DNA from: Gemmatimonadaceae bacterium
GTDB lineage: Bacteria > Gemmatimonadota > Gemmatimonadetes > Gemmatimonadales > Gemmatimonadaceae
NCBI GenBank assembly: GCA_040882285.1
Contig: JBBEBQ010000010.1
Location: 408,829 to 453,075, forward strand
Reading direction: 5' to 3'
DNA: 44,247 nucleotides
Shown here: one piece after another, positions 7,178-35,527 of the stretch
How the letters are laid out: every line of letters starts with the position of its first letter
Position numbering within the stretch: the first letter of the stretch is position 1
Notes under the pieces: generated by a model
The model's input: the letters and a program-made list of their open reading frames with translations, nothing else
The model's database searches: none
Told to the model about the DNA's origin: nothing
Translations under genes and position numbers: made by a program

Positions 7178-7233
7178 CGCAGGCCGCAGGACGGAGGGCG
7201 CAGGGTCGTTAGCACGCAGCACGCAGCGCAGTT
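7178..7233. repeat. Degenerate heptanucleotide array, CGCAGGN and CACGCAG units
   Basis: Eight consecutive 7-bp units remain in phase despite divergence: CGCAGGC, CGCAGGA, CGGAGGG, CGCAGGG, TCGTTAG, CACGCAG, CACGCAG, CGCAGTT. The array reaches the stop codon of lpd. Confidence 0.75.
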
Positions 7234-8645
7234 CAAATGTGAATCGACCGCCCAAGCACGCCGAGCGCCGCTTCCTTTACCACCTCGGACAGCGTCGGAT
7301 GCGAATGCACCGTGATCCCGATGTCCTCCGACGAGCCGCGGTACTCGAACGCGAGCACCACTTCCTGAATCAGCTCCGATGCGTTCGCGCCGATGATGTG
7401 GCAGCCGAGCAGCTCGTCGGTCTTGGCGTCGGCGATGAACTTCACGAAGCCGCTCGTCTCGTTCATGCTGCGCGCGCGGCCGTTCGCGGAAAAGGGAAAC
7501 TTGCCGACCTTGAACTTGCGGCCGCTGTCCTTCACCTCCTGCTCGGACAGGCCGACGGTCGCGATCTCGGGCCAGGTGTACACCACCGAGGGCATCGACC
7601 TGTAATCCATGCGCGCCTTATGGCCCGCGATCACCTCCGCCGCGACGACGCCTTCCTCTTCGGCCTTGTGCGCGAGCAGCTTGCCGCCGACCGCGTCGCC
7701 GATGGCGTACACGTCCGGGAGATTGGTGCGCATCTGGCCGTCCACCACCAGCTCGCCGCGCTGACCGACGTTGAGGCCAAGCGCCTTCGCGTCGATTCCC
7801 TGAAGCGACGGCTTGCGTCCGACGGAGACGAGCACGCGGTCCGCTTCGAGCGTCTCGGTCTTGCCGTTCGCGTCTATGTCCACGAGCACGCGGTTCTTCT
7901 CGACGCGCGCGCCGGTGACCTTGGTGCCGACGCGGAGGTCGAGCCCCTGCTTGCGGAAGATCTTGTCTGCTTCCTTGACGACCTCGTGGTCGGTGCCGGG
8001 AAGAATCGTCGGCGTCAGCTCGACGACGGTCACTTTCGCGCCGAGCCTGCGCCAGACGGAGCCGAGCTCGAGTCCGATGATTCCGCCGCCGATGACGACG
8101 AGATGCTTCGGCACTTCGGCAATCCGCAGCGCGCCGTCATTGGAGAGCACGCGGTCCTCGTCGAACTTGAGAAAGGGCAGCTCAATCGGGATCGAGCCCG
8201 TCGCGATGATCACGTGCTTCGCCTGGTAGCTGGTGGTCTTGCCGTCCTCGCCCGCGACGTCCACGACGTTGCCGGCCTTCAGCGTTCCGCGTCCCTTCGC
8301 CCAGGTGATCTTGTTCTTCCGGAAGAGGAACTCGATTCCCTTGGTGTTCTGCGCGACGACGTCGTCCTTGCGCTTGAGCATCGCGGCGAGGTCCAGCTCG
8401 ACGCCGGACGTTTTCACGCCGTGCGCGGCGGCGTGCAGCCGCGCGAACTCGTAGTGCTCGGACGAAGTCAGCAGCGCCTTCGAAGGAATGCAGCCGATGT
8501 TGACGCACGTTCCGCCGAGCGTCTTCGCCTGCTCGACGCAGACGGTGGCGAGTCCGAGCTGCGCGGCGCGGATCGCGGCGACGTAGCCGCCGGGGCCGCC
8601 GCCGATGATTACTACGTCGACGGTGGACGGGGAATTGTCAGGCAT
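7233..8645 (-). CDS. lpdA: Dihydrolipoyl dehydrogenase (E3)
   Basis: The product is 470 aa, the standard length. It has the N-terminal FAD-binding motif (VVIIGGGPGGYVAA), the redox-active disulfide Cys47/Cys52 (GGTCVNIGCIPSK), a second nucleotide-binding motif for NAD (VIGGGIIGLELGSVW), the FAD motif (VYAIGDAVGG) and the C-terminal catalytic HSHPTLSE. It reoxidises the lipoyl groups of 2-oxoacid dehydrogenase complexes with NAD+. The E2 gene lies upstream on the same strand, separated by a small lipoprotein gene and a large palindrome; E1 is not in the window. No strong ribosome site precedes the ATG at 8645. Confidence 0.97.
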   Translation of the reverse strand: MPDNSPSTVDVVIIGGGPGGYVAAIRAAQLGLATVCVEQAKTLGGTCVNIGCIPSKALLTSSEHYEFARLHAAAHGVKTSGVELDLAAMLKRKDDVVAQNTKGIEFLFRKNKITWAKGRGTLKAGNVVDVAGEDGKTTSYQAKHVIIATGSIPIELPFLKFDEDRVLSNDGALRIAEVPKHLVVIGGGIIGLELGSVWRRLGAKVTVVELTPTILPGTDHEVVKEADKIFRKQGLDLRVGTKVTGARVEKNRVLVDIDANGKTETLEADRVLVSVGRKPSLQGIDAKALGLNVGQRGELVVDGQMRTNLPDVYAIGDAVGGKLLAHKAEEEGVVAAEVIAGHKARMDYRSMPSVVYTWPEIATVGLSEQEVKDSGRKFKVGKFPFSANGRARSMNETSGFVKFIADAKTDELLGCHIIGANASELIQEVVLAFEYRGSSEDIGITVHSHPTLSEVVKEAALGVLGRSIHI

Positions 8646-8674
8646 TGGAAAAAGCTAACGGCAACGGCGACAGA

Positions 8675-8787
8675 TAACTGCGAGGGGCGGGGACCGGCGT
8701 GGGGGCAACTCCTCGCACCTACGCGCTCGCTGCGCTCGCGCTAAGACGGTGCTTCGGAGTTGCCCCCACGCCGGTCCCCGCCCGGGG
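8675..8787. repeat. Palindromic element, copy 1
   Basis: Perfect 28-bp inverted arms (8685-8712 and 8756-8783) flank a 43-nt loop. A second copy lies at 35414-35527 with the same outer flanks and the same loop end (CTAAGACGG then GCTTCGGAG). It sits 18 bp past the stop of the upstream lipoprotein gene and about 30 bp before lpdA. Likely a structured RNA/terminator or a MITE/REP-like element. Confidence 0.9.
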
Positions 8788-8804
8788 TGCGCCCGCCGGT
8801 TCCT

Positions 8805-9275
8805 CTACTGCCGCCTGGCTGTGAACCGGCCGCTGACGCGGTCGCCGCCACCGGTCGGCGTCGCGACGAACGATCCGACCAGTGAGTCGCCCTCAACCCG
8901 TCCGTCGGTCGTGGTGTTCACCTCGGCGCTGCCCACCGTCGGGCTGGTGTAGGGCCCGAACGCCGTGCGCATGCCGGACTCGGTGGCGGATTCTACGCGG
9001 ATCGGGATATCGGTCGTCTGGCCGCTGAAGCGAAGCGTGCCGGTCAGATCGGGGCCCGCCGGGGTGAAGGTCATCGTCCAGGCCGAGCCGGTGTCCGATG
9101 CCGGCGCATTGAGGCGGTACGAGCGGCCGTTCCACGTCCCAGCGTACATGGACTGCGCGGGCGTCAGTGCGGGCGTGGCCGGCTCGATCGCCGCGGTGGT
9201 GTCGGTCTCGGCGTCGTCGCCGCCCTTGCATGCGACGAGCGCGAGAGCCATTGAGGCGAGAATCAATTTTTTCAT
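8805..9275 (-). CDS. Small lipoprotein, unknown function
   Basis: The product is 156 aa from the ATG at 9275, preceded at good distance by AGGAGG, the clearest Shine-Dalgarno site in the window. The N-terminus is a lipoprotein signal (MKKLILASMALALVAC, lipobox Cys16), followed by an acidic/Thr/Ala/Pro linker. The remaining ~115 residues look like a compact beta-barrel or lipocalin-like sheet (YAGTWNGRSYRL, WTMTFTPAGPDLTGTLRF, GDRVSGRFTARR). The family is not recognised. It lies between sucB and lpdA on the same strand, probably in one transcription unit, though a role in that complex is unlikely for an exported protein. Confidence 0.75.
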   Translation of the reverse strand: MKKLILASMALALVACKGGDDAETDTTAAIEPATPALTPAQSMYAGTWNGRSYRLNAPASDTGSAWTMTFTPAGPDLTGTLRFSGQTTDIPIRVESATESGMRTAFGPYTSPTVGSAEVNTTTDGRVEGDSLVGSFVATPTGGGDRVSGRFTARRQ

Positions 9276-13880: not shown

Positions 13881-16559
13881 ATGCTTCCCCCCCAAACAAC
13901 CCTGAATCGGCTCGCGTCCGCCCTCGAGGGCCGCTACTCGATCGTCCGCGAGATCGGCACCGGCGGGATGGCGACGGTCTACCTCGCCGAGGACGTCCGG
14001 CACAGGCGCAAAGTCGCCATCAAGGTGCTGCACCCCGAGCTGACCGCGGTGCTCGGTCCCGAGCGGTTTCTCAACGAGATCGAGCTCACGGCGAACCTGC
14101 AGCACCCGCACATTTTGCCGCTGTTCGATTCGGGCGCCGCGGACAACCTGTTGTTCTACGTCATGCCCTTCGTGGAAGGCGAGACGCTGCGGCAGAAGCT
14201 CATGCGCGAGCAGCAGCTCCCGATCGCGGAGGCGGTCAGGATCGCGAGCGACATCGCCGACGCGCTGGAGTACGCGCACAAGCACGGCGTAGTGCATCGC
14301 GACATCAAGCCGGAGAACGTGCTGCTGCACGAGGGACGGCCGCTCGTGGCCGACTTCGGGATCGCCCTCGCCGTGCAGCACGCGGGCGGCGAGCGGATGA
14401 CGCAGACCGGGATGTCGCTGGGAACGCCGCAGTACATGGCGCCGGAGCAGGCGATGGGCGACAAGGCGGTCGATCATCGCGCCGACATCTACGCGCTCGG
14501 CGCGGTGACATACGAGATGCTCACCGGCGAGCCGCCGTTCACCGGGCCGAACGCGCAGGCTGTCGTCGCGAAGATCCTCACCACGGATCCGTCGCCGCTC
14601 GTAGCCAAGCGCCGCTCGGTGCCGCCGCAGGTGAACGCCGCGGTGCTCACGGCGCTGGAGAAGATGCCGGCCGACAGATTCGCGAGCGCGGCGGAATTCT
14701 CCGAGGCGATCGCGGGCCGCGGGCCGACGCTCGCGCACACCAGCGCGACTGTCGCGACGGTCACTTCCGCCGCCGCGCCGCGCTGGCGAGTGGCTGCGCT
14801 GGCGGCGTCGGGAATTGCGGTAGCGGCGCTCGCGCTGGCCGCGTGGATGGCGACGAGTGGCCCGGGCGCCGGCGCGGAAACGCCCAACTGGCAGTACGTC
14901 GAGATGGGCGACACCGCCGGCGTCAGCATCGCGAACGCCGGCCTGGCGCTCTCTCCCGACGGAGCGACCCTCGTTTTCCGTGACGCCATCGCGGGCGGCC
15001 GTCTCTGGATCAAGCATCGCTCGGAGCTCGACGCGCGCGCGATCCCCGGCACCGAGCGCGCGTCGAATCCGACTTTCTCCCCCGACGGCGAGTGGGTCGC
15101 CTTCATAGCCGACGGGAGGCTGAAGAAGATCCGCGTTCGGGGAGGCGCGGCGATCACGATCGCCGATTCCGTCGCCGGCCCATACGGCGGAGCGGCCTGG
15201 CTCGAGGACGGGTCGCTGGTCTATGTGGCGCCATCTCTCATCGAGCTCCGCCGAATCGGCGAGGCCGGCGGATCGTACTCGGTGGTGCTGCACGACACGC
15301 TGACGGGCGGGCGGGGGATGGGCTATCCCACTCCGCTCCCACGCGGACGTGGCGTGCTGGTGCAGATGTGCAGCTCCGGCTGCGTCTCAGTCGGAGTGCA
15401 CGCGGTGGATTTCAGAGCGGGGACACGGAAGGCGATCATCGAGGATGCAATCCAGGCCTGGTATCTGCCTTCCGGCCACCTGCTGTACGTGCGCGCCGAC
15501 GGAGCGGCGCTTGTCGCGCCCTTCGATCTTGAAAAGCTCGAGATCACCGGAGGAGCCGTGCCCGCGCTCGAGAGCGTGTTTCGGGGAGGAGGCTTTGCGC
15601 AGCTCGCCTGGTCGCGCTCCGGCAGCCTGGTCTACTTGTCGGGAGCGGTCGACTTCCGCGACGCGATCATCGTCCGCGTCAGCGCGGAAGGAAGCGTCAG
15701 CCAGGTAGATACGTCCTGGTCGGGCCAGTTCAATTCGCTTGCGATTTCGCCCGACGGCCGACGCCTCGCTGTCGGCGTCGGCGTGGGAAGCAGCGCATTG
15801 AATATCTGGGTCAAGCAGCTGGACCGCGGGCCGCTCACGCGCCTGACTTTCGGGGGTCGGGACCGGCGCCCAGCCTGGTCACCGGACGGTCGGCTCGTGG
15901 CATTCATCCGCGACACGCTCACGACCGGCATGGTTGTCACCCGGCCCGCGGACGGAAGCGGCTCGGATCGTCTCCTGCTCCGCCTGCCGCAGCAGCTCCA
16001 GGAAGTGACGTGGACGCGCGACGGTCAGTGGCTGGTGGTCCGGACCGACAACGCCGGCCAAGGTGCCGGCGACCTGATTGGAGTTCGCACCAGCGGTGAT
16101 ACCACGCCGGTGCTGCTCGCGGGTAGCGGGTTCACCGAGCTGCATCCCGAAGTCTCGCCCGACGGCAAATGGCTAGCGTACACATCCATCGAATCGGGAC
16201 GGGATGAAGTGTACGTGCGGCCGTTCCCGGTCACCGGCGGCGGCTTGTGGCAGGTGTCCGTCGGCGGCGGGAGCCAGCCGCGCTGGTCCAGGGATGCGAA
16301 GCGGATCTTTTACCTCGACGCGGGCAACCGCCTCACAGCCGCGGACGTGCGCGCCGCTCCCGCCTTCGAGGTTGTCGGACGGCGCGCTCTATTCGCTGCG
16401 AACGATTTCATTTTCGACGCGTTTCACCAGTCTTACGACGTCGGCCCCGACGGAAGCTTCTTCTTCGTTACCATCCGCCAGCGGACCGGCGCGCGGCGGC
16501 AACAACTGGTGCGGGTGGACAACTGGTTCCAGGACCTCCAGGCGCGGCTGAAGCAGTGA
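13881..16559 (+). CDS. Transmembrane Ser/Thr protein kinase 1 (PknB-type, TolB/WD40-like sensor)
   Basis: The product is 892 aa. Residues ~19-280 are a complete eukaryotic-like kinase: Gly loop IGTGGMATV, Lys48 (VAIK), catalytic Asp141 (HRDIKPEN), Asp158 (ADFG) and activation segment TGMSLGTPQYMAPEQ. A single TM helix is at about 303-324. The remaining ~565 residues carry repeated SPDG-type blades of a TolB/WD40-like beta-propeller, probably outside the membrane. Cys497 and Cys501 (CSSGC) could form a disulfide. The last 4 bp overlap the next kinase (GTGA). The sensor half most resembles kinase 5. The ligand is unknown. Confidence 0.95.
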   Translation: MLPPQTTLNRLASALEGRYSIVREIGTGGMATVYLAEDVRHRRKVAIKVLHPELTAVLGPERFLNEIELTANLQHPHILPLFDSGAADNLLFYVMPFVEGETLRQKLMREQQLPIAEAVRIASDIADALEYAHKHGVVHRDIKPENVLLHEGRPLVADFGIALAVQHAGGERMTQTGMSLGTPQYMAPEQAMGDKAVDHRADIYALGAVTYEMLTGEPPFTGPNAQAVVAKILTTDPSPLVAKRRSVPPQVNAAVLTALEKMPADRFASAAEFSEAIAGRGPTLAHTSATVATVTSAAAPRWRVAALAASGIAVAALALAAWMATSGPGAGAETPNWQYVEMGDTAGVSIANAGLALSPDGATLVFRDAIAGGRLWIKHRSELDARAIPGTERASNPTFSPDGEWVAFIADGRLKKIRVRGGAAITIADSVAGPYGGAAWLEDGSLVYVAPSLIELRRIGEAGGSYSVVLHDTLTGGRGMGYPTPLPRGRGVLVQMCSSGCVSVGVHAVDFRAGTRKAIIEDAIQAWYLPSGHLLYVRADGAALVAPFDLEKLEITGGAVPALESVFRGGGFAQLAWSRSGSLVYLSGAVDFRDAIIVRVSAEGSVSQVDTSWSGQFNSLAISPDGRRLAVGVGVGSSALNIWVKQLDRGPLTRLTFGGRDRRPAWSPDGRLVAFIRDTLTTGMVVTRPADGSGSDRLLLRLPQQLQEVTWTRDGQWLVVRTDNAGQGAGDLIGVRTSGDTTPVLLAGSGFTELHPEVSPDGKWLAYTSIESGRDEVYVRPFPVTGGGLWQVSVGGGSQPRWSRDAKRIFYLDAGNRLTAADVRAAPAFEVVGRRALFAANDFIFDAFHQSYDVGPDGSFFFVTIRQRTGARRQQLVRVDNWFQDLQARLKQ

Positions 16560-19234
16560 GCAATCCTGTGGAGCGCCTGACGACCGCGCTCGCCGGTCGA
16601 TACGAGATCGAGCGCGAGGTCGGCCAAGGCGGAATGGCGACGGTGTATCTCGCGCAGGACGTGCGGCACCACCGCAAGGTGGCGCTCAAGGTGCTGCGCC
16701 CCGAGCTGTCGGCGATACTCGGCGGCGAGCGCTTCCTGCACGAAATCCGCACGACCGCAAATCTGCAACATCCGCACATCCTGCCGCTGCATGACTCCGG
16801 GGAAGCCGACGGCTTCGTCTTCTATGTAATGCCGTTCGTTTCCGGCGAGTCGCTCCGGGATCGGCTCTCGCGCGAGACGCAGTTGCCGGTGGATGACGCC
16901 GTGTGCATCGCGCGTGAAGTAGCCGACGCGCTCGACTACGCCCACCGCCACGGCGTGATCCACCGCGACATCAAGCCCGAGAACATTTTGCTGCACGACG
17001 GCCGCGCGCAGGTCGCGGACTTCGGAATCGCGCTCGCGGTGAGTTCGGCAGGCGGCGGCACGCGCATGACCGAAACAGGCATGTCGCTCGGCACTCCGCA
17101 CTACATGAGCCCCGAGCAGGCGATGGGCGAGCGGGAGATCTCGGCCAAGAGCGACATCTACGCGCTCGGCTGCGTGCTGTACGAGATGCTCGTCGGCGAG
17201 CCGCCGTTCACCGGGCCGAGCGCGCAGGCGATCATCGCGCGCGTGGTAACTGAGGAGCCGCGCTCGCTGACGTTGCAGCGCAGATCCATCCCGCCGCATC
17301 TTGAGGCCGTTGTCCGCCGCGCGTTGGAGAAACTTCCCGCTGATCGTTTCCAGAGCGCAGCGCAGTTCGGGGCGGCGCTCGCGAACCCCGAGCTCGTCCC
17401 GGTGCCCCCGCGGCGCGAGAGCGCTCTCACGGGCCACGCTCGACTGCCGGCCGGTGGGTGGCGCTCGCACCGCTTCGCCGTTCCCGCATTAGCCGCGCTG
17501 CTCGCTCTCGCAATCGCGGGAGGCGCGTGGGGATGGATGCGGCCAATGCCGGTGCCGGTCAATCCGGTGGCCACGTTTGCGCTGCCGCTTCCGGATGACG
17601 CTCCGTTCGTCGAGACGGGTGGACGCGCGATAGCGTTTTCGCCCGACGGCGACCGGATCGTGTACACCGGCAGAACGAAGCAGGGGGAGCAACACCTTTT
17701 CCTGCGGAGCCTCCGGCAACTTCAGCCTGCTGCAATTCCTGGAACCCGGGACGCGAGGGACCCGTTCTTCTCTCCGGATGGAGCGTGGATCGGCTTCGTT
17801 ACCGCGGACGACAAGATCCAGAAGGTCGCGCTCGCAGGCGGGCCGCCGCTGACGATCGCAAGCGCGGACAGCGGGTATCTCGGAGCAAGCTGGGGCGCGG
17901 GCGATATCGTGGTCGTGGCTACCCTATTCGGACTGCGACAGGTGCCGGCGGCCGGCGGGCGATTGACGTTGCTGACCAGGACCGATTCGCTGCAGCTTGC
18001 GGCGCATCGGTTTCCTGAATTTCTCCCGGATGGAAAAACCGTCCTCTTCCAGCTTCGGGACTCCGCCGGCATAGATCGACTCGCTGCGGCAAGTTTGGGG
18101 GATGGGACCGTAAAGCAGCTCAATGAAGTCGGCTCCGATCCTCGTTACGTGAACTCGGGGCACGTCCTGCTCAGCAGCCTCATGGGAACTGTTGTAGCCG
18201 TCCCGTTCGATGCATCCCGCGTAGAGGTCACGGGCGCCGCTATCCCGGTCGCGGAGGGTGTCGTTGTCGGCTCCGGAGGTGCCGCGAAAATGGGCGTTTC
18301 GCGACGGGGATCGATTGCATATAGCCCGGGTGCTTCCGGCGCCCGCTCGCTGGTGCTGGTAGACCGAAGTGGGGCCGTGCAGCAGATATCAACTGAAAAT
18401 CGGAGTTACGAGTCTCCCCGTTTTTCACCGGATGGGAAGAGCGTTGCGGTTGCCGTAGACGAAGGTTCGAGCTCGAGCATCTGGGTGTTCGAGCTCGCGC
18501 AAAAGACACTCACCCGGCTCACCTTCTCCGGGAATTCCAGCCGGGCCTTCTGGACGCCGGACGGCGCCCGGGTTACGTACACGGCATTCGACGGACCCCC
18601 GGCCATCTGGTCGGTTCGCGCGGATGGGAGCGCTCAGCCGGAGCGGGTGATCGCCAGCGGAAGTGGCAGGATCGGCGATGATTGGAGCCGCGATGGTCGA
18701 ACTCTCGTGTTCCATCAGGGCGGAGCCGCCCGAAACGACATTATGCTGTTGTCCACGGACAGCGGCGCTGCGCCGCGACCATATCTCGACAGCGCGGCGG
18801 ACGAGTTCGCACCGGCCGTGTCTCCCGATGGTGCGTGGGTGGCTTATACGTCCAGCGAATCGGGTCGAACCGAGATTTACGTGCGCTCGTTTCCTGTTCC
18901 GGGTGGCAAGGTGCAAGTCTCGCTCGCTGGTGGATCCCAGCCCCGATGGTCGCGCGACGGGCGCGAGCTTTTCTTCCTGAACGGCGAGCAAATGATGGCG
19001 GCCACAGTGCAGCTTCGGCCGACGTTCACCGTGACGGGGCGAACGGAGCTGTTTCGCGGGGCGTTTCGGAGCAACCTGTACTTTGCCCAGTACGATGTCT
19101 CACCCGATGGCCGGCATTTTCTGACAATGAAGAGCGAGCAGGAATCGCAGGGGTTGATCGTCATGCTGAACTGGTTCGACCAGCTCCGCGGCAACCGTGC
19201 CGACGCGCGAACGCAAGCGGCGGCGGGTCAATAG
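16556..19234 (+). CDS. Transmembrane Ser/Thr protein kinase 2 (PknB-type, TolB/WD40-like sensor)
   Basis: The product is 892 aa from a GTG at 16556, overlapping the previous stop by 4 bp, so translational coupling is likely. The kinase is intact: IGQ-like loop VGQGGMATV, Lys45 (VALK), Asp138 (HRDIKPEN), Asp155 (ADFG) and TGMSLGTPHYMSPEQ. The activation-loop region (MTETGMSLGTPHYMSPEQ, GEREISAKSDIYALG) groups it with kinase 6. The TM helix is at about 307-326 and a propeller follows. The sensor half resembles kinase 3 (DIMLLSTDSG, DEFAPAVSPDGAWVAYTSSE). It ends 1 bp before the start of kinase 3. Confidence 0.94.
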   Translation: MSNPVERLTTALAGRYEIEREVGQGGMATVYLAQDVRHHRKVALKVLRPELSAILGGERFLHEIRTTANLQHPHILPLHDSGEADGFVFYVMPFVSGESLRDRLSRETQLPVDDAVCIAREVADALDYAHRHGVIHRDIKPENILLHDGRAQVADFGIALAVSSAGGGTRMTETGMSLGTPHYMSPEQAMGEREISAKSDIYALGCVLYEMLVGEPPFTGPSAQAIIARVVTEEPRSLTLQRRSIPPHLEAVVRRALEKLPADRFQSAAQFGAALANPELVPVPPRRESALTGHARLPAGGWRSHRFAVPALAALLALAIAGGAWGWMRPMPVPVNPVATFALPLPDDAPFVETGGRAIAFSPDGDRIVYTGRTKQGEQHLFLRSLRQLQPAAIPGTRDARDPFFSPDGAWIGFVTADDKIQKVALAGGPPLTIASADSGYLGASWGAGDIVVVATLFGLRQVPAAGGRLTLLTRTDSLQLAAHRFPEFLPDGKTVLFQLRDSAGIDRLAAASLGDGTVKQLNEVGSDPRYVNSGHVLLSSLMGTVVAVPFDASRVEVTGAAIPVAEGVVVGSGGAAKMGVSRRGSIAYSPGASGARSLVLVDRSGAVQQISTENRSYESPRFSPDGKSVAVAVDEGSSSSIWVFELAQKTLTRLTFSGNSSRAFWTPDGARVTYTAFDGPPAIWSVRADGSAQPERVIASGSGRIGDDWSRDGRTLVFHQGGAARNDIMLLSTDSGAAPRPYLDSAADEFAPAVSPDGAWVAYTSSESGRTEIYVRSFPVPGGKVQVSLAGGSQPRWSRDGRELFFLNGEQMMAATVQLRPTFTVTGRTELFRGAFRSNLYFAQYDVSPDGRHFLTMKSEQESQGLIVMLNWFDQLRGNRADARTQAAAGQ

Positions 19235-19235
19235 C

Positions 19236-21908
19236 ATGACTGGTTCCAGCAACGTTCTAGACAAGCTCTCCACCGCGCTCGCGGATCGGTACGAGATCGA
19301 GCGCGAGATCGGACAGGGCGGAATGGCCACCGTGTATCTCGCGCAGGACATTCGCCACCGCCGCAAGGTCGCGATCAAGGTGCTGCACCCCGAGCTCACC
19401 GCCGTGCTCGGCCCCGAGAGATTTCTCAACGAGATCGAGCTCACCGCGAACCTGCAGCATCCGCATATCCTGCCGCTGTTCGATTCGGGTGCGGCCGACA
19501 CGCTGCTGTTCTATGTGATGCCGTACGTGCAGGGCGAGACGCTCCGCACGCGTCTTGCGCGCGAGCAACAGCTCCCGATCGCCGAGGCGGTGCGCATCGC
19601 CAGCGACGTGGCCGACGCGCTCGAGTACGCGCACAAGCACGGCGTAGTCCACCGCGACGTCAAGCCCGAGAACATCCTCCTGCACGACGGACGTCCGCTC
19701 GTGGCGGACTTCGGCATCGCGCTCGCCGTGCAGCAGGCAGGCGGGTCGCGCATGACGCAGACCGGAATGTCGCTCGGTACCCCGCAGTACATGGCCCCCG
19801 AGCAGGCGATGGGCGACAAGTCGGTAGATCACCGCGCGGACATCTACGCGCTGGGCGCGGTGACATACGAGATGCTCACCGGCGAGCCGCCATTCACCGG
19901 TCCGAACTCGCAGGCGGTCGTCGCGAAGATCCTCACCACGGATCCTTCGTCACTCGTTTCGAAGCGACGCTCCGTGCCGCCGCATGTCGAATCGGCGGTA
20001 CTCACGGCACTGGAGAAGATGCCCGCGGACAGATTCGCGAGCGCGGCGGAGTTCGCCGACGCGATTGCCGGACGCGGTCCGGTCCTGGAGACGCGCGCCA
20101 CGGCGAGCGCGCGCGCAGTGGCGGCGAGGCCGGGCGCCCGTCAGCGCGCCCTGCACGCGCTGCCGTGGGCGGTCGCTGCCATGGCGATTGCGGTCGGTGC
20201 GTGGGGTTGGTTGCGGGATGAGCCCTCGGTCCAGGCGCCGGTTGCGCGCTTTTCCATAACCTTTGCCGAAACCGCGCGCTTCACCGACCTCCCGGGCAGC
20301 GGTATCGCGGTATCGCCGGACGGTGCTCGCTTCGTCTATACGGGTGTGAATGCCGCGGGTGTGGGCCAGCTGTTCATGCGTGCGCTCGGGCAGCTCGAGC
20401 CGGTGCCGATCGAGGGGACTCGTGGAGCCACAGCGCCCTTCTTCTCGCCGGACGGAGCGTGGATCGGATTCGTAGCCACGGGGCGGCTACAGAAAATAGC
20501 TCTCTCGGGCGGCCCGCCGCTCACCATCTCCGCCCTGGACAGCGGCTTTTTCGGTGCCACCTGGGGCGACAACGACGTCGTGGTTTTCGCCATGGAGGAC
20601 GGGTTGCGACAGGTGCCTGCGGCCGGCGGCAAGCCGGCGCTGCTGCTGCAGCTGGACACGACCGATGGTGTGACGGGTTACCGTTTTCCTCATTTCATGC
20701 CGGGCGGAGATGCCGTGCTGTTCCAGCTGTCGGCGGGGCTTAATACTTTCTCGCCCGCTGCAGTGACGCTGGGCGACCGTCGCGTGAAAAAATTTCAGGT
20801 CGCGGGGGGCAACCCCAGCTACGTCTCGACCGGACACATCGTACTCTCCAACTCCGACGGCACGATAACCGCCGCGCCGTTCGATCCGCGATCACTGGAG
20901 TTCCGGGGGAACGCCGTACCGATAGCGGAGCAAGTCGCCGTCGGCCTCGGAGGCCCCGCCGAGTTCGGCATTTCCCTGCGGGGGACTTTCGTGTACGCGA
21001 GCGGGACCGCCACCGCGAGGTCCGTGGTGGCGGTGGAGCGCGGCGGCAGCGTGAGTGAGCTCACGACGGAGATGCGGACATACAGCGCGCCACGGCTATC
21101 GCCGGACGGGACGCGGATCGCCGTGGAGATCGCCGAGAGCGGGGCGAGTTCCATCTGGGTCTACGAAGTCGCGCAGAAGACGCTGACGAAGCTGACGGTC
21201 ACAGGCACGGCGTCGCGCCCCGTGTGGACGCCCGATGGATCGCGACTTACCTATACGATGGACGTCAACGGAACGCCGGATATCGGCTGGATCAGGGCCG
21301 ACGGCAGCGCGCTGGCGGAGCCACTGCTCGCGATGCCGGGTCGCCAGTTGGCGGACGAGTGGTCCCCCGACGGCAGGTGGCTCGTGTACCACCAGAACAA
21401 CGCCTCGGTGAGCCGCAACGACATCATCCTGATGTCGGCAGACAGTGGTCGCGCGGTGCGGACTTACCTGCAGACTCCGAACGACGAGTTCGCGCCGGCC
21501 GTTTCACCCGACGGGCGCTGGCTGGCGTACACATCGGATGAGTCCGGCCGCTATGAGATTTACGTACGATCCTTTCCCGAGCCGGGCGGGAAAGTGCAGA
21601 TCTCACTCGACGGCGGGGGAGAGGCCCGTTGGTCCCGCAACGGTAGTGAGCTTTTTTATCGGAACGGCGAAAGGATGATGGCCGCCCGCGTCGTCACCGC
21701 GCCCGGGTTCTCGGTTCAGAGTCGCACCGAGCTGTTTCGCGGGATCTTCACAAGTTATCCCTTCCACGCGCAGTACGACGTGACGAGGGACGGCCGCTTC
21801 ATCACGACGCAAGGTCCGGCGTCGTCGGGCGCGGTAGTGGTGGTCCTCAACTGGTTCGACCAGCTGCGCGGCGAGGGCCGCGCGCGGCAGCAGAGCGGCG
21901 GGCAGTAA
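19236..21908 (+). CDS. Transmembrane Ser/Thr protein kinase 3 (PknB-type, mosaic)
   Basis: The product is 890 aa from the ATG at 19236, one base after the previous stop; an upstream in-frame start at 19197 lies inside kinase 2. Lys48 (VAIK), Asp141 (HRDVKPEN, with Val where the others have Ile) and Asp158 (ADFG) are present. The kinase half groups with kinases 1 and 5 (TQTGMSLGTPQYMAPEQ, GDKSVDHRADIYALG). The juxtamembrane/TM tract (nt 20058-20210, TM about 308-327) is 98% identical to that of kinase 5. The propeller half instead resembles kinase 2. This looks like a recombinant gene. Confidence 0.94.
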   Translation: MTGSSNVLDKLSTALADRYEIEREIGQGGMATVYLAQDIRHRRKVAIKVLHPELTAVLGPERFLNEIELTANLQHPHILPLFDSGAADTLLFYVMPYVQGETLRTRLAREQQLPIAEAVRIASDVADALEYAHKHGVVHRDVKPENILLHDGRPLVADFGIALAVQQAGGSRMTQTGMSLGTPQYMAPEQAMGDKSVDHRADIYALGAVTYEMLTGEPPFTGPNSQAVVAKILTTDPSSLVSKRRSVPPHVESAVLTALEKMPADRFASAAEFADAIAGRGPVLETRATASARAVAARPGARQRALHALPWAVAAMAIAVGAWGWLRDEPSVQAPVARFSITFAETARFTDLPGSGIAVSPDGARFVYTGVNAAGVGQLFMRALGQLEPVPIEGTRGATAPFFSPDGAWIGFVATGRLQKIALSGGPPLTISALDSGFFGATWGDNDVVVFAMEDGLRQVPAAGGKPALLLQLDTTDGVTGYRFPHFMPGGDAVLFQLSAGLNTFSPAAVTLGDRRVKKFQVAGGNPSYVSTGHIVLSNSDGTITAAPFDPRSLEFRGNAVPIAEQVAVGLGGPAEFGISLRGTFVYASGTATARSVVAVERGGSVSELTTEMRTYSAPRLSPDGTRIAVEIAESGASSIWVYEVAQKTLTKLTVTGTASRPVWTPDGSRLTYTMDVNGTPDIGWIRADGSALAEPLLAMPGRQLADEWSPDGRWLVYHQNNASVSRNDIILMSADSGRAVRTYLQTPNDEFAPAVSPDGRWLAYTSDESGRYEIYVRSFPEPGGKVQISLDGGGEARWSRNGSELFYRNGERMMAARVVTAPGFSVQSRTELFRGIFTSYPFHAQYDVTRDGRFITTQGPASSGAVVVVLNWFDQLRGEGRARQQSGGQ
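20058..20210. repeat. Recombined juxtamembrane/TM tract, copy in kinase 3
   Basis: This 153-bp segment aligns without gaps to 25360-25512 with only 3 mismatches. Flanking parts of the two genes differ much more, including at synonymous sites. It encodes the end of the kinase domain, an Arg/Ala linker and the TM helix. Confidence 0.9.
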
Positions 21909-21910
21909 AT

Positions 21911-24553
21911 GTGACGGACACCACCAGCGCCCTCGACAAGCTCAACGCTGCTCTCGCGGACAAGTACCTGGTCGAGCGCGAGATAGGTCAGGGCGGAATG
22001 GCGACGGTGTATCTCGCCGAGGACGTGAGGCACCATCGCAAGGTCGCGATCAAGCTGCTGCATCCGGAGCTGAGCGCGGTGCTCGGTCCGGAGCGGTTCC
22101 TCAAGGAGATCGAACTCACCGCCAACCTGCAGCACCCGCACATACTTCCGCTGTTCGATTCGGGGAACGCGGACGGGCACCTCTACTACGTGATGCCGTT
22201 CGTCGAGGGCGAGACGCTGCGCCGCAAGCTCGAACGCGAGCGGCAGCTGCCCGTGCCCGACGCAGTGCGAATCGCTGCCGATGTCGCGGACGCGCTCGAC
22301 TACGCGCACAAGCGAAACGTGATCCACCGCGACATCAAGCCGGAGAACATCCTGCTGCACGACGGCCGCCCGATGGTGGCCGACTTCGGCATCGCGCTGG
22401 CCGTGCAGCACGCGGGCGGCACGCGCATGACGCAGACCGGCATGTCGCTCGGCACCCCGCAGTACATGAGCCCCGAGCAGGCGATGGGCGAGCGCGATGT
22501 GGATCACCGCGCGGACATCTACGCTCTCGCCGCAGTGACGTACGAGATGCTTACCGGCGAGGCGCCGTTCAGCGGACCGACCGCGCAGGCCATCGTCGCG
22601 AAGGTCATGACCAATGATCCCGTCCCGCTGCGGGAGCTCCGCAAGACGATTCCGCCGCACGTGGAGGCAGCCGTTCTCACGGGCTTGCAGAAGCTGCCGG
22701 CCGACCGCTTCGTGACTGCCGGCGATCTTCGCGCGGCGCTGACGGATCCGCGCAGTGACGCGGGCGTCCGCGCCGCGGCGCCGATTCAACCAGCGGCAGG
22801 CGCTCTGGCGCGGCGAAAGTGGCTTCTGCCAGCGGCCGCGCTCGCGCTGGTCGCGCTCGGAGCGGCGGCGGCGTGGATCGCGAAGCCGGTGCCGACATCG
22901 GGTCGACTGCCCGTGCAATTCGCTCTCTACGTCGATTCGGCGCACCAGGCGGGCACCGCCTGCTGCGGCTACCAGGTGGCGATCTCTCCGGATGAAAAGG
23001 AGCTCGTTTACGTCGGCGCGCACAATGGCCTTCGCCAGCTTTATGCGCGGCAGCTGAACGAGCTCGTCGCGCATGCCGTCCCCGGAACGGAAGGCGCCCT
23101 CGAGGTATTCTTCTCTCCGGACGGCAACTGGCTCGGATTCAGGACGAGACGCGGGGGAGGCGGAGGACGAGCGGGAGCCGTCGGTGACTACGAGCTGAGA
23201 AAGGTGCCGGCGCGCGGTGGAGCCCCACTCACGATCGCGACCGTACAGGGCTTTCCGTACGGCGCGACCTGGCTGTCCGATGGAACCATCGTTTTTGCGG
23301 GCGAGGGAAAGTTGTACGCCGTCTCGGCGGACGGCGGCACTCCGACGAGGATCGGCGTGCCTGATTCGAGCTACCGGTACCCATCGAGCGTGGCCGGCAC
23401 CAGCGCCGTGTTGTACGCGCGCTTCCGCCCGGACGGCGGTCCGCGAGTCGGGGTGGTGGATATCCGCAGCGGCGCCGAGCATTACATCACCGACGGCGCC
23501 CGGCCGGTGTATAGCGCCGCTGGATACGTGACCGTCGCACGCGGAGGATCGCTCGTCGCGCAACGCTACGAGCCGCGACGGGGCGCCACGAGCGGGTCAC
23601 CCCGCACCCTGACCGATAACCTCAGCCGGCCGATCGATTACGACATATCCGCACGCGGACTGTTGATTTATCAGTCCGGCACGGCGGGCGGAGCCGTGGA
23701 TTTCGTGGAAAACGGGGTGGCGCGGGAGATCAACATCCCGGTGAACGCGAATCATTATGACAGCCCGCGGATCTCTCCCGACGGCCGGCGCCTGGCGGTC
23801 GCGATGGGTGGGATTGCGGGCGGGCACCAGATTGTGGTCCACGATCTCGAGCGCAAAACGACCTTGCGGCTCACGTTCTCCGGAAACAGCGAGTATCTCG
23901 CCTGGACACCTGACGGGCGCAGCCTGGTGTACGCCGGCGATTCGCTGGTGAGGATCCAGCCCGCCGACCGCAGCGCACCCGAGCGAGTCCTCCTCTCGGT
24001 CAGTCCCCGGCTCATCAATCAGGTTTCCGTCGGCGGCAAGTGGCTTGCCTACGCGGTGCAGGACCCAGCCGATGCTAACACTTCGGACATTTTCATAGCT
24101 TCGCTCGATTCGACACGGGGACAACCGTACCAAGCCACTCCTTTCAGCGAGACGGCCCCTGCGCTCTCGCCTGACGGCAAGTGGCTGGCGTACGTGTCGG
24201 ACGAAAGCGGCCGCGCGGAGGTGTACGCGAGCGCGGTGCCGGTCGCGGGCGCGCGCGAGGTCATCTCGAACAATGGCGGGCAGGAGCCGGTGTGGAGCCG
24301 TGACGGGCGAACGCTGTTTTATCGCACGCTCGAAGGGGCTGTCATCGCCGTCGCGATCACCGGCCAGGCTGCTCCCACAGTCGCCGGCCGTCGTGAGATC
24401 TTCCGGTCGTCACACGAGCTCTCCGAAGACGGCTCAGACTACGACGTCCTTCCTGACGGGAAGGGGCTGGTGATGGTGCGGTCTGCCCGCGCCGGCGCCC
24501 CGATCGTGGTTTTCACCGACGCGTTCAGCGACATCTTCCGGGCGGCTAGGTGA
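21911..24553 (+). CDS. Transmembrane Ser/Thr protein kinase 4 (PknB-type, divergent sensor)
   Basis: The product is 880 aa from a GTG at 21911, two bases after the previous stop. The kinase is intact: IGQGGMATV, Lys48 (VAIK), Asp141 (HRDIKPEN), Asp158 (ADFG) and TGMSLGTPQYMSPEQ. The TM helix is at about 303-324. The propeller half is unlike those of the other five and contains a Cys-Cys pair just after the membrane (GTACCGYQ), a Gly/Arg-rich insert (RRGGGGGRAG) and the usual SPDG blades. Its last bases overlap the next kinase start (GTGA). The signal is unknown. Confidence 0.94.
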   Translation: MTDTTSALDKLNAALADKYLVEREIGQGGMATVYLAEDVRHHRKVAIKLLHPELSAVLGPERFLKEIELTANLQHPHILPLFDSGNADGHLYYVMPFVEGETLRRKLERERQLPVPDAVRIAADVADALDYAHKRNVIHRDIKPENILLHDGRPMVADFGIALAVQHAGGTRMTQTGMSLGTPQYMSPEQAMGERDVDHRADIYALAAVTYEMLTGEAPFSGPTAQAIVAKVMTNDPVPLRELRKTIPPHVEAAVLTGLQKLPADRFVTAGDLRAALTDPRSDAGVRAAAPIQPAAGALARRKWLLPAAALALVALGAAAAWIAKPVPTSGRLPVQFALYVDSAHQAGTACCGYQVAISPDEKELVYVGAHNGLRQLYARQLNELVAHAVPGTEGALEVFFSPDGNWLGFRTRRGGGGGRAGAVGDYELRKVPARGGAPLTIATVQGFPYGATWLSDGTIVFAGEGKLYAVSADGGTPTRIGVPDSSYRYPSSVAGTSAVLYARFRPDGGPRVGVVDIRSGAEHYITDGARPVYSAAGYVTVARGGSLVAQRYEPRRGATSGSPRTLTDNLSRPIDYDISARGLLIYQSGTAGGAVDFVENGVAREINIPVNANHYDSPRISPDGRRLAVAMGGIAGGHQIVVHDLERKTTLRLTFSGNSEYLAWTPDGRSLVYAGDSLVRIQPADRSAPERVLLSVSPRLINQVSVGGKWLAYAVQDPADANTSDIFIASLDSTRGQPYQATPFSETAPALSPDGKWLAYVSDESGRAEVYASAVPVAGAREVISNNGGQEPVWSRDGRTLFYRTLEGAVIAVAITGQAAPTVAGRREIFRSSHELSEDGSDYDVLPDGKGLVMVRSARAGAPIVVFTDAFSDIFRAAR

Positions 24554-27219
24554 CCGAGTCAAGCCGCCTGAGCGCGACGCTCGCCGACCGCTATACCATC
24601 GAGCGCGAGATCGGCCAGGGCGGAATGGCGACCGTGTATCTCGCCGAAGACGTGAAGCACCACCGCAAAGTCGCGATCAAGGTGCTGCACCCCGAGCTGA
24701 GCGCGCTGCTCGGCCCCGAGCGGTTCCTCAAGGAGATCGAGCTCACCGCGAACCTGCAGCACCCGCACATCCTGCCGCTGTTCGACTCGGGGAACGCCGG
24801 CGGGCACCTGTATTACGTGATGCCGTTCGTCGAGGGAGAGACGCTGCGCCGCAAGCTCGAGCGCGAGCAGCAGCTGCCGATCGCCGAGGCGGTGCGAATC
24901 GCGAGCGACGTCGCCGACGCGCTCGAGTACGCGCACAAGCGCGGCGTGGTGCACCGCGACATCAAGCCGGAGAACATCCTGCTGCACGACGGACGTCCGC
25001 TCGTCGCGGACTTCGGCATCGCGCTGGCCGTGCAGCAGGCGGGTGGCGCCCGCATGACGCAAACGGGAATGTCGCTTGGCACGCCGCAATACATGGCCCC
25101 AGAACAGGCGATGGGCGACAAGTCCGTGGATCATCGCGCGGATATCTATGCGCTCGGCGCGGTCACTTACGAGATGCTGACGGGCGAGCCGCCGTTCATC
25201 GGACCGAACGCGCAGGCGGTAGTAGCGAAGGTACTCACGACGGATCCGATCTCGCTCGCGGTCAAGCGGCGGTCGGTGCCGCCGCACGTGGAAGCGGCTG
25301 TGCTTACCGCGCTGGAGAAGATGCCGGCGGACCGGTTCGCGAGCGCGGCGCAGTTCGCGGACGCGATTGCCGGACGCGGTCCGGTCCCGGAGACGCGCGC
25401 TACGGCGAGCGCGCGCGCAGTGGCGGCGAGGCCGGGCGCCCGGCAGCGCGCCCTGCACGCGCTGCCGTGGGCGGTCGCTGCCATGGCGATTGCGGTCGGT
25501 GCGTGGGGTTGGCTGCGACCTCCGGAGCGGTCGGTCCGTCGTGACCGCATCATGCTGTGGAAGACGGTGACTCCGGTATCCGTCGTGGGGCGCTTCCTCG
25601 CGGTGTCCCCGGACGGCGAAACGCTCGCGTTCGTGGATACCATAGGAAAGCAGCAGCTCTGGCTGAAGGAGCCCGACAAGCTCGACGCCGTTCCGATCGT
25701 CGGAACGGATGAAGCCGCCGGCCCGGCGTTTTCGCCGGACGGTGAATGGATCGCGTTCGGTGCCGAAGGGAAGTTGAAGAAAGTGCCGGCGTTCGGTGGG
25801 TCCGCGATAACCCTGTCCGATTCCGCAGCGATCCAGCCGGCCGTGGCATGGCTGGACGACGGAACGATTCTCTTCACCACAGCATCTTTCAATCTGCTCG
25901 CCGTGCCCGCCGCGGGCGGACCAAGCAGACGGGTAGTATCGGCGGACTCCATGGGCCGGGGCGTCGTAAACGTCACGGGACTTCCAGGCAGCGCCGGCGC
26001 CATAATCACTACCTGCCGGCCCGGCTGCGACGACGCCGACGTGCGGGCGCTCGATCTCGAGACCGGCGAGTCCAATGTGCTGGCCGCGGAGTCGCTGCAG
26101 GGATGGTTTCTCGATGGAAACATCGTGTTCGTGCGACGGGATGGCGGGGCGTTCGCCGCGCCTTTCAACATCCGCAAGCGCGTTCTTACCGGGCCGGCCG
26201 TGCCCGTGCTCAGCGGTGTTCGGACCGGTGTCGTGGTCGCGGACATGACGGTCGCGCGGAATGGAACGCTCGTGTACATCCCCGGCGCCTCGCAGGCGGG
26301 GTCGTTAGTGGAGCCGGTGTGGGTGACCAGGTCGGGATTGACATCGCCGGTGGACTCGGCGTGGTCGTTCGTGACGTCGGCGAACTGGGGGATGGCGTTG
26401 TCGCACGACGGTCGAAGGCTCGCGGTCGGAGCGCGGGTTTCCGGAAGCGACGACATCTGGGTGAAGGAGTTCGACGGGGGCGCGCTTCGGAGGCTTACCT
26501 TCGAAGGAAGCAACACGCGCGCGGCCGCCTGGTCGCCGGACGGAGCATCGGTGATCTACACGTCGGTGCAGGGCGGGAACTCGGACTTCCGGATTCGGCG
26601 CGCGGACGGTACCGGCGGCGAGGAGATTCTGGTTGATCTGCAGCGGGGCCTTTTCGAGATCGCGCTGACCAGGGATCCGGCGCAGATGATCGTGCGGGTC
26701 GGCGCGCCGCCGAGCCGGGATATGCTGCTGTTGTTCCGCCGCGACAGTGGTGCCGTCCCGCTCATCGCCTCGGAGCGGTTTCAGGAAGTCGGACCGGCAC
26801 TCTCGCGGGACGGGCGCTGGCTGGCATACGCATCGGACGAGACCGGCAGATACGAGGTGTACGTGCGGCCCTTTCCCAACGTCAACGAGGGAAAGTGGCA
26901 GGTATCGCGCAATGGCGGGTTCGAGCCCTTCTGGGCGCGCAACGGAAGGGAGCTGTTCTATCGGGAGGCTGCCGGGAACATCATATCGGTCTCTCTAGTG
27001 TCCGATTCTACGTTCCGCACCGGCGACCAGCGCATTCTTTTCTCGACCCGCGGCCTCAATCTTCTCCCTCAGGGTCGATCGTACGACGTCATGCCGGACG
27101 ATCAGCGCTTCATTTTCACCCGCCCAGTGGGTGCCGAGGTGAGCAATGCCCCGGTGCCGGTTGTGGTCGTCCAGAACTGGGGCGCCGAGATCAGAAACCT
27201 GGCGCGCGGACAGCGCTAA
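24550..27219 (+). CDS. Transmembrane Ser/Thr protein kinase 5 (PknB-type, TolB/WD40-like sensor)
   Basis: The product is 889 aa from a GTG at 24550, overlapping kinase 4 by 4 bp. Lys44 (VAIK), Asp137 (HRDIKPEN), Asp154 (ADFG) and TGMSLGTPQYMAPEQ are present. The TM helix is at about 303-322, within the tract shared with kinase 3. The sensor half resembles kinase 1: both have SPDGEWIAF-like and LKK-x-P/R-x-x-GG patterns and a CxxxC pair (here Cys489 and Cys493, CRPGC), suggesting a common extracytoplasmic fold with a disulfide. The TAA stop lies in the same frame as kinase 6, 24 bp before its proposed start. Confidence 0.95.
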   Translation: MTESSRLSATLADRYTIEREIGQGGMATVYLAEDVKHHRKVAIKVLHPELSALLGPERFLKEIELTANLQHPHILPLFDSGNAGGHLYYVMPFVEGETLRRKLEREQQLPIAEAVRIASDVADALEYAHKRGVVHRDIKPENILLHDGRPLVADFGIALAVQQAGGARMTQTGMSLGTPQYMAPEQAMGDKSVDHRADIYALGAVTYEMLTGEPPFIGPNAQAVVAKVLTTDPISLAVKRRSVPPHVEAAVLTALEKMPADRFASAAQFADAIAGRGPVPETRATASARAVAARPGARQRALHALPWAVAAMAIAVGAWGWLRPPERSVRRDRIMLWKTVTPVSVVGRFLAVSPDGETLAFVDTIGKQQLWLKEPDKLDAVPIVGTDEAAGPAFSPDGEWIAFGAEGKLKKVPAFGGSAITLSDSAAIQPAVAWLDDGTILFTTASFNLLAVPAAGGPSRRVVSADSMGRGVVNVTGLPGSAGAIITTCRPGCDDADVRALDLETGESNVLAAESLQGWFLDGNIVFVRRDGGAFAAPFNIRKRVLTGPAVPVLSGVRTGVVVADMTVARNGTLVYIPGASQAGSLVEPVWVTRSGLTSPVDSAWSFVTSANWGMALSHDGRRLAVGARVSGSDDIWVKEFDGGALRRLTFEGSNTRAAAWSPDGASVIYTSVQGGNSDFRIRRADGTGGEEILVDLQRGLFEIALTRDPAQMIVRVGAPPSRDMLLLFRRDSGAVPLIASERFQEVGPALSRDGRWLAYASDETGRYEVYVRPFPNVNEGKWQVSRNGGFEPFWARNGRELFYREAAGNIISVSLVSDSTFRTGDQRILFSTRGLNLLPQGRSYDVMPDDQRFIFTRPVGAEVSNAPVPVVVVQNWGAEIRNLARGQR
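25360..25512. repeat. Recombined juxtamembrane/TM tract, copy in kinase 5
   Basis: Partner of 20058-20210: 150 of 153 positions identical, no gaps. The similarity drops sharply immediately after it, where the sensor domains become unrelated. Confidence 0.9.
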
Positions 27220-27243
27220 CCGTTCGCCACACCGGGTAATTAT

Positions 27244-31698: not shown

Positions 31699-34254
31699 AT
31701 GACCGCGCCCATCATCCGCGAACGCATCCTTCCGCGCCTCATAGACGACGAGATCAAAGAGTCGTTCATCAACTACTCGATGAGCGTCATCGTGTCGCGC
31801 GCGCTCCCCGACGTGCGCGACGGGCTCAAGCCCGTGCACCGCCGCGTGCTGTACGCGATGAACGAGCTCGGTCTCGTGCCGGGCCGGCCGTACAAGAAAT
31901 CGGCGACCGTCGTCGGCGACGTGCTCGGCAAGTATCACCCGCACGGCGACTCGTCGGTGTACGATGCGCTCGTGCGCATGGTGCAGGATTTCTCGCTGCG
32001 CTATCCGCTGGTGGACGGGCAGGGGAACTTCGGCTCGGTGGACGGCGATCCCGCGGCCGCGTACCGGTACACCGAGGCGCGGCTCACGCGCGTCGCGATG
32101 GAGATGCTCGCCGACATCGACAAGAACACCGTCGACTTCACGCCGAACTTCGACGACCGGCTGATGGAGCCGAGTGTGCTCCCGTCGGCGGTGCCAAACC
32201 TGCTGGTGAACGGCTCGTCGGGGATCGCGGTCGGCATGGCGACGAACATCCCGCCGCACAACGTCCGGGAAGTCGTCAACGCGCTCGTCGCGCTGATCGA
32301 AGATCCTGAGATCGAGCCGGGCGCGGTGCGGAAGCTCATCAAGGGCCCGGATTTCCCGACGGGCGGCTACATCTACGGCCGCGCCGGCATCCGCGCCTAC
32401 CAGGAGACGGGGCGCGGCCGGATCGTGATGCGCGCGCGCGCCGTCATCGAGGAAAAGGAATCCTCCAACAAGTCGCAGATCGTCGTGAACGAGCTGCCGT
32501 ACCAGGTGAACAAGGCCAAGCTCATCATCGACATGGTCGAGCTGGTGAAGGAAGGGAAGCTCGAGGGGATCTCCGCGCTGCGCGACGAGTCCGACAAGGA
32601 CGGCATGCGCATCGTGATCGAGCTCAAGCGCGACGCCATCCCGCGCGTGGTGCTGAACCAGCTGTACAAGCACACGGCGATGCAGTCCACGTTCGGCGTG
32701 ATCATGCTGGCGCTGGTGCCCGACCCGGGCACGGGCCAGCTCGTGCCGAAGATCATGCCGCTGCGCGACGTGCTGCTGCACTACATCGAGCACCGGCATA
32801 CCGTGGTGATCCGTCGGACGCAGTTCGATCTCGACAAGGCGGTCGAGCGCGAGCACATCCTCGAGGGTCTCAAGATCGCGGTCGACAACATCGACGCGGT
32901 CATCAAGCTCATCCGCGCCGCCGACGACACGGCGACGGCGAGCGGGCAGCTGCAGAAGAAGTTCAAGCTCAGCGAGCGGCAGGCCGAGGCGATCCTCAAC
33001 ATGCGGCTCGCCAAGCTCACGGGTCTCGAGATCGAGAAGCTGGAGGTCGAGCTGAAGGAGGTGCGCGCGACGATCAAGGACCTGCGCGACATCCTCTCGT
33101 CCAAGCCGCGCCGGATGCGGCTCGTCCGCGCGGAGCTGGAGAAAGTCGCCGAGACGTACGGGGACGAGCGGAGATCGGAGATAACGAGCGACGAGGGCGA
33201 GTTCACGATCGAGGATCTGATCGCCGAGGAGGACATGGTGATCACGATCTCGCACTCGGGCTACATCAAGCGCACGAGCGTGTCCACGTACCACAAGCAG
33301 CGGCGCGGCGGGCGCGGGCTCAGCGGCCAGGGGCTCAAGGAAGAGGACTTCATCGAGCGGCTGTTCATCGGCTCGACGCACGACTACATGCTGTGCTTCA
33401 CGCACGACGGCCGCTGCTTCTGGCTCAAGGTGCACGAGCTGCCGCAGGCCGGGCGCGCGGCGCGCGGCAAGCCGATCGTCAACCTGATCAACGTCTCGCC
33501 CGAGACGCAGATCAAGGCGATCGTGCCGGTGCGCGCGTTCAGCGACACCGAGTTCCTCCTGTTCTGCACGCGCGACGGCACGGTGAAGAAGACCGCGCTG
33601 TCGCAGTATGCCAACCCGCGCGCCAACGGGATCAAGGCGATCAAGATCGACGCCGGCGACGAGCTGATCGACGTGCAGGTGACGAGCGGCACCAACGACG
33701 TCGTGCTCGCGACCAAGCACGGCCTGTCCATCCGCTTCCACGAGCAGCAGGTCCGGCAGATGGGACGCGACACCACGGGCGTGAAGGGCGTGGAGCTGCG
33801 CGCGAATGACCATGTCGTGGGGATGGTCGTCATCAAGCGTGAGGCGACACTGCTCGTCGTGACGGAGCGCGGGCTCGGCAAGTGCTCCAATATCGACGAC
33901 TACCGCGTGCAGAATCGCGGCGGCAAGGGGATCATCACGGTGAACCGCACCGAGAAGACCGGAGACGTCGTGGGAATCATGGAAGTGCTGCCGGAAGACG
34001 AGATCATGATCATCACCCGCGGCGGAGTCATCATCCGCTCGCCGGTCTCGCAGATCCGCACCACCGGCCGGATCGCGCAGGGCGTGCGGCTCGTGAATCT
34101 CGATCCGGGCGACGTCGTGACCGCGGTCGCGCGCGTGGTGCCGGAGGACGAGGGCGAAGATGGCGGCCCGGGCGGCCCGGGCGGCCCGGGCGGCCCGGGC
34201 GACACCGGCGGCGACGAAGCCGACGAGGCAGTAGAGGCCGGCTCCGAGAGCTGA
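31699..34254 (+). CDS. gyrA: DNA gyrase subunit A
   Basis: The product is 851 aa. The breakage-reunion domain has catalytic Arg123-Tyr124 (YRYTEARL). The quinolone-determining region reads [13 protein letters not shown] with Ser85 and Asp89, equal to the susceptible Ser83/Asp87 of E. coli. The GyrA box QRRGGRG near residue 534 and the following six-bladed C-terminal domain distinguish it from ParC. The tail after the last blade is acidic and Gly-rich, with four GGP repeats. The enzyme introduces negative supercoils with GyrB, which is not in the window. A good promoter lies upstream. The next gene starts on the last base of the stop codon. Confidence 0.97.
34162..34200. repeat. 9-bp in-frame repeat GGCGGCCCG x4 in the gyrA tail
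   Basis: Four perfect GGCGGCCCG units plus a partial one encode Gly-Gly-Pro repeats in the acidic C-terminal tail of GyrA. Copy number could change by slippage without breaking the frame. Confidence 0.95.
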
Positions 34255-35413: not shown

Positions 35414-35527
35414 TAACTGCGAGGGGCGGGGACCGGCGGGAGGGTAACGTTCTCGCGCCTACGCTCGCAAACTACGCTCGCTAAGACGGCGCTTCGGAGT
35501 TACCCTCCCGCCGGTCCCCGCCCGGGG
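35414..35527. repeat. Palindromic element, copy 2
   Basis: Perfect 25-bp inverted arms (35424-35448 and 35499-35523) flank a 50-nt loop. Compared with copy 1 at 8675-8787, three stem pairs differ, each with the matching change in the other arm. It begins 6 bp after the stop of the diguanylate cyclase gene and ends about 40 bp before the next gene. Confidence 0.9.

Follow-up and report, generated by a model that had tools for sequence, protein, structure and literature searches.

Two related hairpins in the window

The window, a 44,247-nucleotide stretch of a Gemmatimonadaceae genome (2.89 Mb in 27 contigs), contains two copies of a palindromic intergenic element. Copy 1 lies between two minus-strand genes, on the stop side of a small ORF at 8805-9251 and on the start side of a dihydrolipoamide-dehydrogenase-like gene at 7233-8645. 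Copy 2 follows a plus-strand GAF-GGDEF gene (34254-35408) and precedes a plus-strand ORF at 35548-36615, for which a start was scored at 35698. The initial annotation had correctly located both copies and placed each between a stop codon and a co-directional gene; yet the core of the element is on the plus strand in both cases, so that the copies are oppositely oriented relative to transcription. The features of the two copies are:

8675-8787, plus strand: element copy 1 (the block common to copy 2)
8685-8712, plus strand: copy 1, outer stem, 5' arm, 28 bp, perfect
8715-8719, plus strand: copy 1, inner stem A, 5' side GCACC, pairing with 8748-8752
8719-8748, plus strand: copy 1, core, extended variant GCGCTCGCTGCGCTCGCGC, covariance-model score 34.8 bits
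8720-8722 (TAC) and 8742-8747 (TAAGAC), plus strand: copy 1, internal loop around apical stem B
8748-8752, plus strand: copy 1, inner stem A, 3' side GGTGC
8756-8783, plus strand: copy 1, outer stem, 3' arm
35414-35527, plus strand: element copy 2
35424-35448, plus strand: copy 2, outer stem, 5' arm, 25 bp, perfect
35455-35459, plus strand: copy 2, inner stem A, 5' side GCGCC
35459-35488, plus strand: copy 2, core CTACGCTCGCAAACTACGCTCGCTAAGACG, the commonest loop type of the family, 64.2 bits
35488-35492, plus strand: copy 2, inner stem A, 3' side GGCGC
35499-35523, plus strand: copy 2, outer stem, 3' arm

Every position of the outer stems is paired (28/28 for 8685-8712/8756-8783 in copy 1 and 25/25 for 35424-35448/35499-35523 in copy 2). 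The three compensated stem differences reported between the copies are real, as all six named base pairs check, and the 5-bp inner stem holds a fourth that had been missed (copy 1 A8717-T8750, copy 2 G35457-C35490). On either strand, both copies fold with z-scores of -6.7 to -10.3 against dinucleotide shuffles, none of 200 shuffles being as good. No other pair in their own genome has long stems that are clearly alike. Orthologs are present in one congener for copy 1 (G001) and in two others for copy 2 (G002 and G003), which indicates that both are old loci and not a recent duplication; the compensated changes are visible by eye because one stem lineage is common to the two.

Copy number and genus restriction

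The element was initially thought to exist in two copies, which is wrong: its own genome has about 75, and the family, found only in a single uncultured genus of Gemmatimonadaceae, numbers some 50-80 intergenic hairpins in each genome. A search of the own genome with copy 2 returned 48 matches, mostly of the middle 30-45 bases alone, and these have the same core at the hairpin tip with a different long stem each time. With a covariance model of the core (apical part) and inner stem, a check that the initial annotation had proposed, further copies were found both in the own genome (77 matches at E<=1) and in three congeners (54, 78 and 68 matches at E<=0.001), all relatives being draft assemblies and several metagenome-derived. 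Another 56 genomes, from the family and the order, gave no match, and in a class-wide sample of 198 genomes from 89 genera matches were confined to this genus (1/89).

An exact-core pattern scan of 84,980 genomes, a set that may omit the window's own genome, retrieved three MAGs only (JACDCY, JANLGX and CALMKE), labelled Gemmatimonadaceae or Gemmatimonadetes, and the same pattern had no match in viral contigs. Searches of the window and four element loci against Rfam, at gathering and lax thresholds, gave only chance matches below cut-off, and a literature search found no description of such a family.

Architecture of the element

The element is about 110 bp long. Its outer stem of 20-35 bp is followed inwards by a small internal loop, an inner stem of 5-6 bp, a conserved internal loop and, at the tip, an apical stem-loop. 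Outer and inner stems are free in sequence, whereas the apical stem-loop is mostly fixed yet replaceable. The only sequence conserved throughout is the internal loop between the stems, CTAC...TANNACG, which has TAC on one side and TANNAC on the other and is closed by invariant C-G pairs. On the element's plus strand the core consensus reads C-TAC-GCKCGC-AAACTRC-GCNCGC-TANNAC-G, in which almost no variation is seen at the closing C-G pair (C8-G37 of the core alignment) or at loop bases CTAC, TA and ACG. The minus strand of the core reads CGTC...GTAG; among full-length copies GTAG occurs in 99% and CGTC in 68% of cores. The apical stretch from CTACG to CTANNACG is 17 nt in most copies and ranges from 4 to 57 nt, so the tip too is replaceable.

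The median outer stem spans 25 columns (21-38 columns, 5th-95th percentile); outer stems differ in sequence at nearly every locus, with no conserved position at their outer ends in a base profile. Observed arm scores are far above those of arms drawn from different elements. Left arms are G-rich and right arms C-rich, and a GCATC motif often lies beyond the outer end of the right arm. Across 31 copies, the inner stem has both-side changes at 4/5 pairs and no one-sided standard-pair change; the core alignment has 54 both-side cells and likewise no one-sided change of this kind.

Position relative to genes

Based on gene calls from a simple home-made codon-usage scorer, which is an approximation, 247 of 251 elements lie outside predicted genes. 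Where a gene ends on the 5' side, the outer base of the hairpin is a median of 17-19.5 nt past the stop codon, the usual element start being 15-20 nt after it. Counting each region once, 115 are co-directional, 46 convergent and 12 divergent; the elements avoid divergent promoters. All 49 element pairs less than 600 bp apart are convergent, and single elements occur in either orientation to their genes (++ 42, -- 37). Convergent pairs also occupy most of the larger gaps of a cluster on contig C23 that resembles a pyrimidine-catabolism cluster, judging by functions read from sequence. At one locus (L083:3660-3700, A2 columns 193-229), the 200-bp spacer that separates two convergent hairpins has at its middle a block conserved in 4/4 species, possibly a promoter or regulatory site.

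Compensatory change and turnover at orthologous loci

Matches of flanking sequence defined about 72 orthologous sets, 23 of which are present in all four species. Over 94 gap-free ortholog comparisons, 71.4% of stem pairs were the same, 22.2% were another Watson-Crick pair and 5.1% were changed on one side. The stems have undergone massive double-sided change, with 458 pairs replaced by another Watson-Crick pair through change of both partners, as against 105 in which a single partner changed, although the compared sequences are related and such cell counts are non-independent events. About four in five changed pairs at these loci are altered on both sides, which strongly supports the earlier claim that pairing is maintained, the proposed causes being selection on a hairpin and palindrome-templated repair. 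On C23, in the gap separating two oxidoreductase genes, the four species align almost gap-free across both hairpins, and 17 of 71 pairs are changed on both sides compared with at most 4 in slid controls; none of 500 shuffles reaches 17.

Transitions account for 41% and transversions for 59% of the compensated changes; single substitutions in flanking DNA, taken from crude flank alignments, are 33% transitions and 67% transversions. Stems have diverged no more than the intergenic DNA next to them, with no sign of accelerated change. The ideas that stems had been wholly replaced, or that they were spacer-like records, were dropped, as the gap-free orthologs show stepwise stem drift.

Element turnover exists, as some orthologous sites are without an element. 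A site on C2 of G000 has no hairpin where G002 and G003 do, and at a G000 gene junction with overlapping stop and start codons both G001 and G002 carry an element, with different stems. The sequence ATGA/TATGA at the junction common to G002 C135 and G000 C11 is a possible target-site duplication; it is ambiguous as such, since stop and start codons overlap there and G001 carries the element too. At this overlapping junction of G000, an additional open stretch of about 0.9 kb is present in G003 (G003:C123, approximately 23200-24130; L366). On the best reading, the family is old and mostly vertically inherited.

Action as DNA or RNA

At stem position 6-8, 47 of 108 independent loci have a fixed A.C on the plus strand, equivalent to a G.T/G.U wobble on the minus strand. 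Mismatches at this position number 49 A.C against 3 G.T and occur in every gene-orientation class. An apparently broad strand asymmetry (A.C 244 versus G.T 89) narrowed to this one position when one locus was counted per orthologous set; elsewhere in the stems of independent loci, 50 A.C versus 39 G.T is not significant (p 0.29). The minus strand folds better at 79 of 108 loci with DNA parameters and at 94 of 108 with RNA parameters.

An RNA hairpin in mRNA leaders or trailers, acting in 3'-end protection, processing or attenuation and with selection on RNA structure alone driving compensation, is a possible but unlikely explanation. It would suit the placement right after stop codons, the scarcity of elements at divergent promoters, the extensive covariation and the fixed G.U-compatible pair on the strand that is the more stable as RNA at most loci. 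However, the near-equal orientations of single elements mean that the transcribed strand varies by locus while the wobble strand stays constant. Because the wobble is fixed to the element strand and not to the transcript, folded DNA is favoured, and of the earlier suggestion of selection on an RNA hairpin the pairing is upheld, action as RNA being one possibility. Evolution via G-U intermediates would also be expected to yield mostly transitions, which does not fit the observed spectrum, and tolerance of a mismatch in a 25-bp GC-rich stem would predict more one-sided changes than are seen. No Rfam family was matched, and an intrinsic terminator is ruled out, as a T-tract follows the hairpin at neither end on either strand in any of 242 elements; a terminator scan of window positions 8400-9100 also found none. 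The orientation evidence favours DNA, although a separately transcribed RNA is possible and would be compatible with RNA parameters favouring the minus strand more than DNA parameters do.

Comparison with known elements

REP/BIME sequences are intergenic palindromes found between convergent and unidirectional genes, with head-to-head dimers and a bias to positions downstream of genes; REP superfamilies carry a GTAG or CGTC tag, unpaired at one end of the palindrome, and a family-specific stem of 5-13 bp (Di Nocera et al. 2013, PMC3733652). The present family resembles them as a multicopy set of extragenic palindromes past stop codons, between convergent and co-directional genes, with head-to-head dimers and with both GTAG and CGTC in its core, and some REPs also lie within longer palindromes. 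These hallmarks, and the occurrence of both superfamily tags on the minus strand of the core, speak for REPs of the classical kind, which a RAYT (Y1 transposase) mobilises. Such an origin is nevertheless very improbable. The outer stems here are 20-35 bp without a consensus, the tags are enclosed in the hairpin, where they flank the apical stem on the minus strand, and the element is about 110 bp long, compared with 20-40 bp for REPs, and confined to a single genus. The RAYT-like gene that the initial annotation had suggested looking for is absent: no Y1_Tnp (PF01797) protein was detected in any of the four genomes of the genus (0/4, controls positive), which contradicts present-day mobility by this route. 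The family is thus REP-like in distribution, but departs from REPs in two defining features and in having no such mobiliser. Pairs of inverted hairpins with a spacer also recall REPINs as a possible unit (REPIN/RAYT, PMC3116915), from which they differ in the missing RAYT gene, the different long stems of paired hairpins and the many singletons.

Weinberg et al. (2010, PMC2864571) described STAXI and similar motifs, likewise covarying structures found by comparative genomics and considered for action as folded single-stranded DNA; STAXI, however, consists of pseudoknot repeats in another gene context, and its authors lean to RNA. A search for SbcD found distant homologs in every relative and is uninformative. 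In attC sites of integrons, the outer core boxes are conserved and the centre is variable, and the folded strand is recognised by its structure. That one strand folds better here, and that integron-integrase matches (TIGR02249) are above cut-off in two of the four genomes (G000 and G001), would be in line with attC-like sites of an integron or of another tyrosine recombinase using folded single strands. We consider this extremely improbable: the layout is reversed, with the conserved part inside and the variable part outside, the two genomes that lack an above-cut-off integrase are as rich in elements as the others, and the elements lie in syntenic chromosomal order with neither cassette arrays nor an integrase link. 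Integron-integrase-like genes or fragments are scattered at G000:C14:5513, C5:314636, C20:13935 and C8:83694, one of them interrupted by TGA.

Proposed template switching and selection, and a putative recogniser

Template switching maintains hairpins and produces changes on both sides with no intermediate step, among them transversions (Monttinen and Loytynoja 2022, PMC8794818). The same hallmark is found here, in a different setting: that study concerned rRNA and microRNA genes, whereas the present hairpins occupy about 70 dispersed intergenic loci of one bacterial genus and have a conserved internal loop. Rare one-sided changes together with transversions are what template switching predicts, and strong selection for perfect stems could match them too. 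That the hairpins are functionless, being long inverted repeats kept perfect by polymerase template switching alone with no protein reader, would agree with a compensatory spectrum resembling the neutral one, with arms that drift like the adjoining DNA and with the known ability of this process to preserve hairpins. We regard it as improbable, since the CTAC/TANNACG loop is nearly invariant though unpaired, where template switching conserves nothing, so that its conservation needs a recogniser. Placement at gene ends, the exclusively convergent arrangement of pairs and retention at 72 orthologous loci also need selection or a recogniser.

Our preferred explanation, held with about even confidence, is that these are genus-restricted, REP/BIME-like intergenic DNA hairpins that are recognised by shape, spread in the ancestor of the genus and have their arms kept matched by template switching together with selection. 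A putative protein would recognise the conserved internal loop on a hairpin that is extruded or single-stranded; given the indifference to the direction of transcription, this hairpin is more likely to be DNA than mRNA. The spread in the genus ancestor may have depended on a putative enzyme other than a Y1/RAYT transposase, with slow turnover at present. The arms would stay matched through template switching, one arm being copied from the other during replication, and selection against unmatched arms would probably add to this.

More tentatively, and with some doubt, we hypothesise that the hairpins represent a new class of dispersed element read purely by the shape of folded DNA, with sequence-free stems on either side of a conserved internal loop, which a putative genus-specific, non-RAYT protein spreads and maintains while template switching matches the arms. 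If true, the genomes would hold a natural, genome-wide record of copying between arms. Selected RNA structures are classically proven by compensatory change, and with some 70 orthologous hairpin loci in four species the family offers a rare opportunity to tell selection on structure apart from copying by template switching. The family also suggests that shape-recognised DNA elements can be abundant and yet missed by repeat finders that rely on conserved sequence.

Other repeats of the window and family

Between genes of the window there are also inverted pairs of heptanucleotide tandem repeats, GTGACTA/TAGTCAC, at 2478-2560, 36620-36777, 37124-37194, 40465-40528 and 43146-43189. Analogous heptad palindromes occur in other genera, with the units GATTGCG, GGGAATC, CTGCGAA (G005) and GGTAGGN (G004). 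Another Gemmatimonadaceae genome (G024, L321-L340) has long quasi-palindromes of its own, with 37-53 bp stems and CACGGAAAC-like motifs, so Gemmatimonadaceae may commonly carry long palindromes between genes, belonging to different families. The window further contains, at 13881-29892, six tandem plus-strand genes of approximately 860-1000 aa whose first 300 bases are 72-81% alike, the first encoding a Ser/Thr kinase with PD40 beta-propeller repeats.
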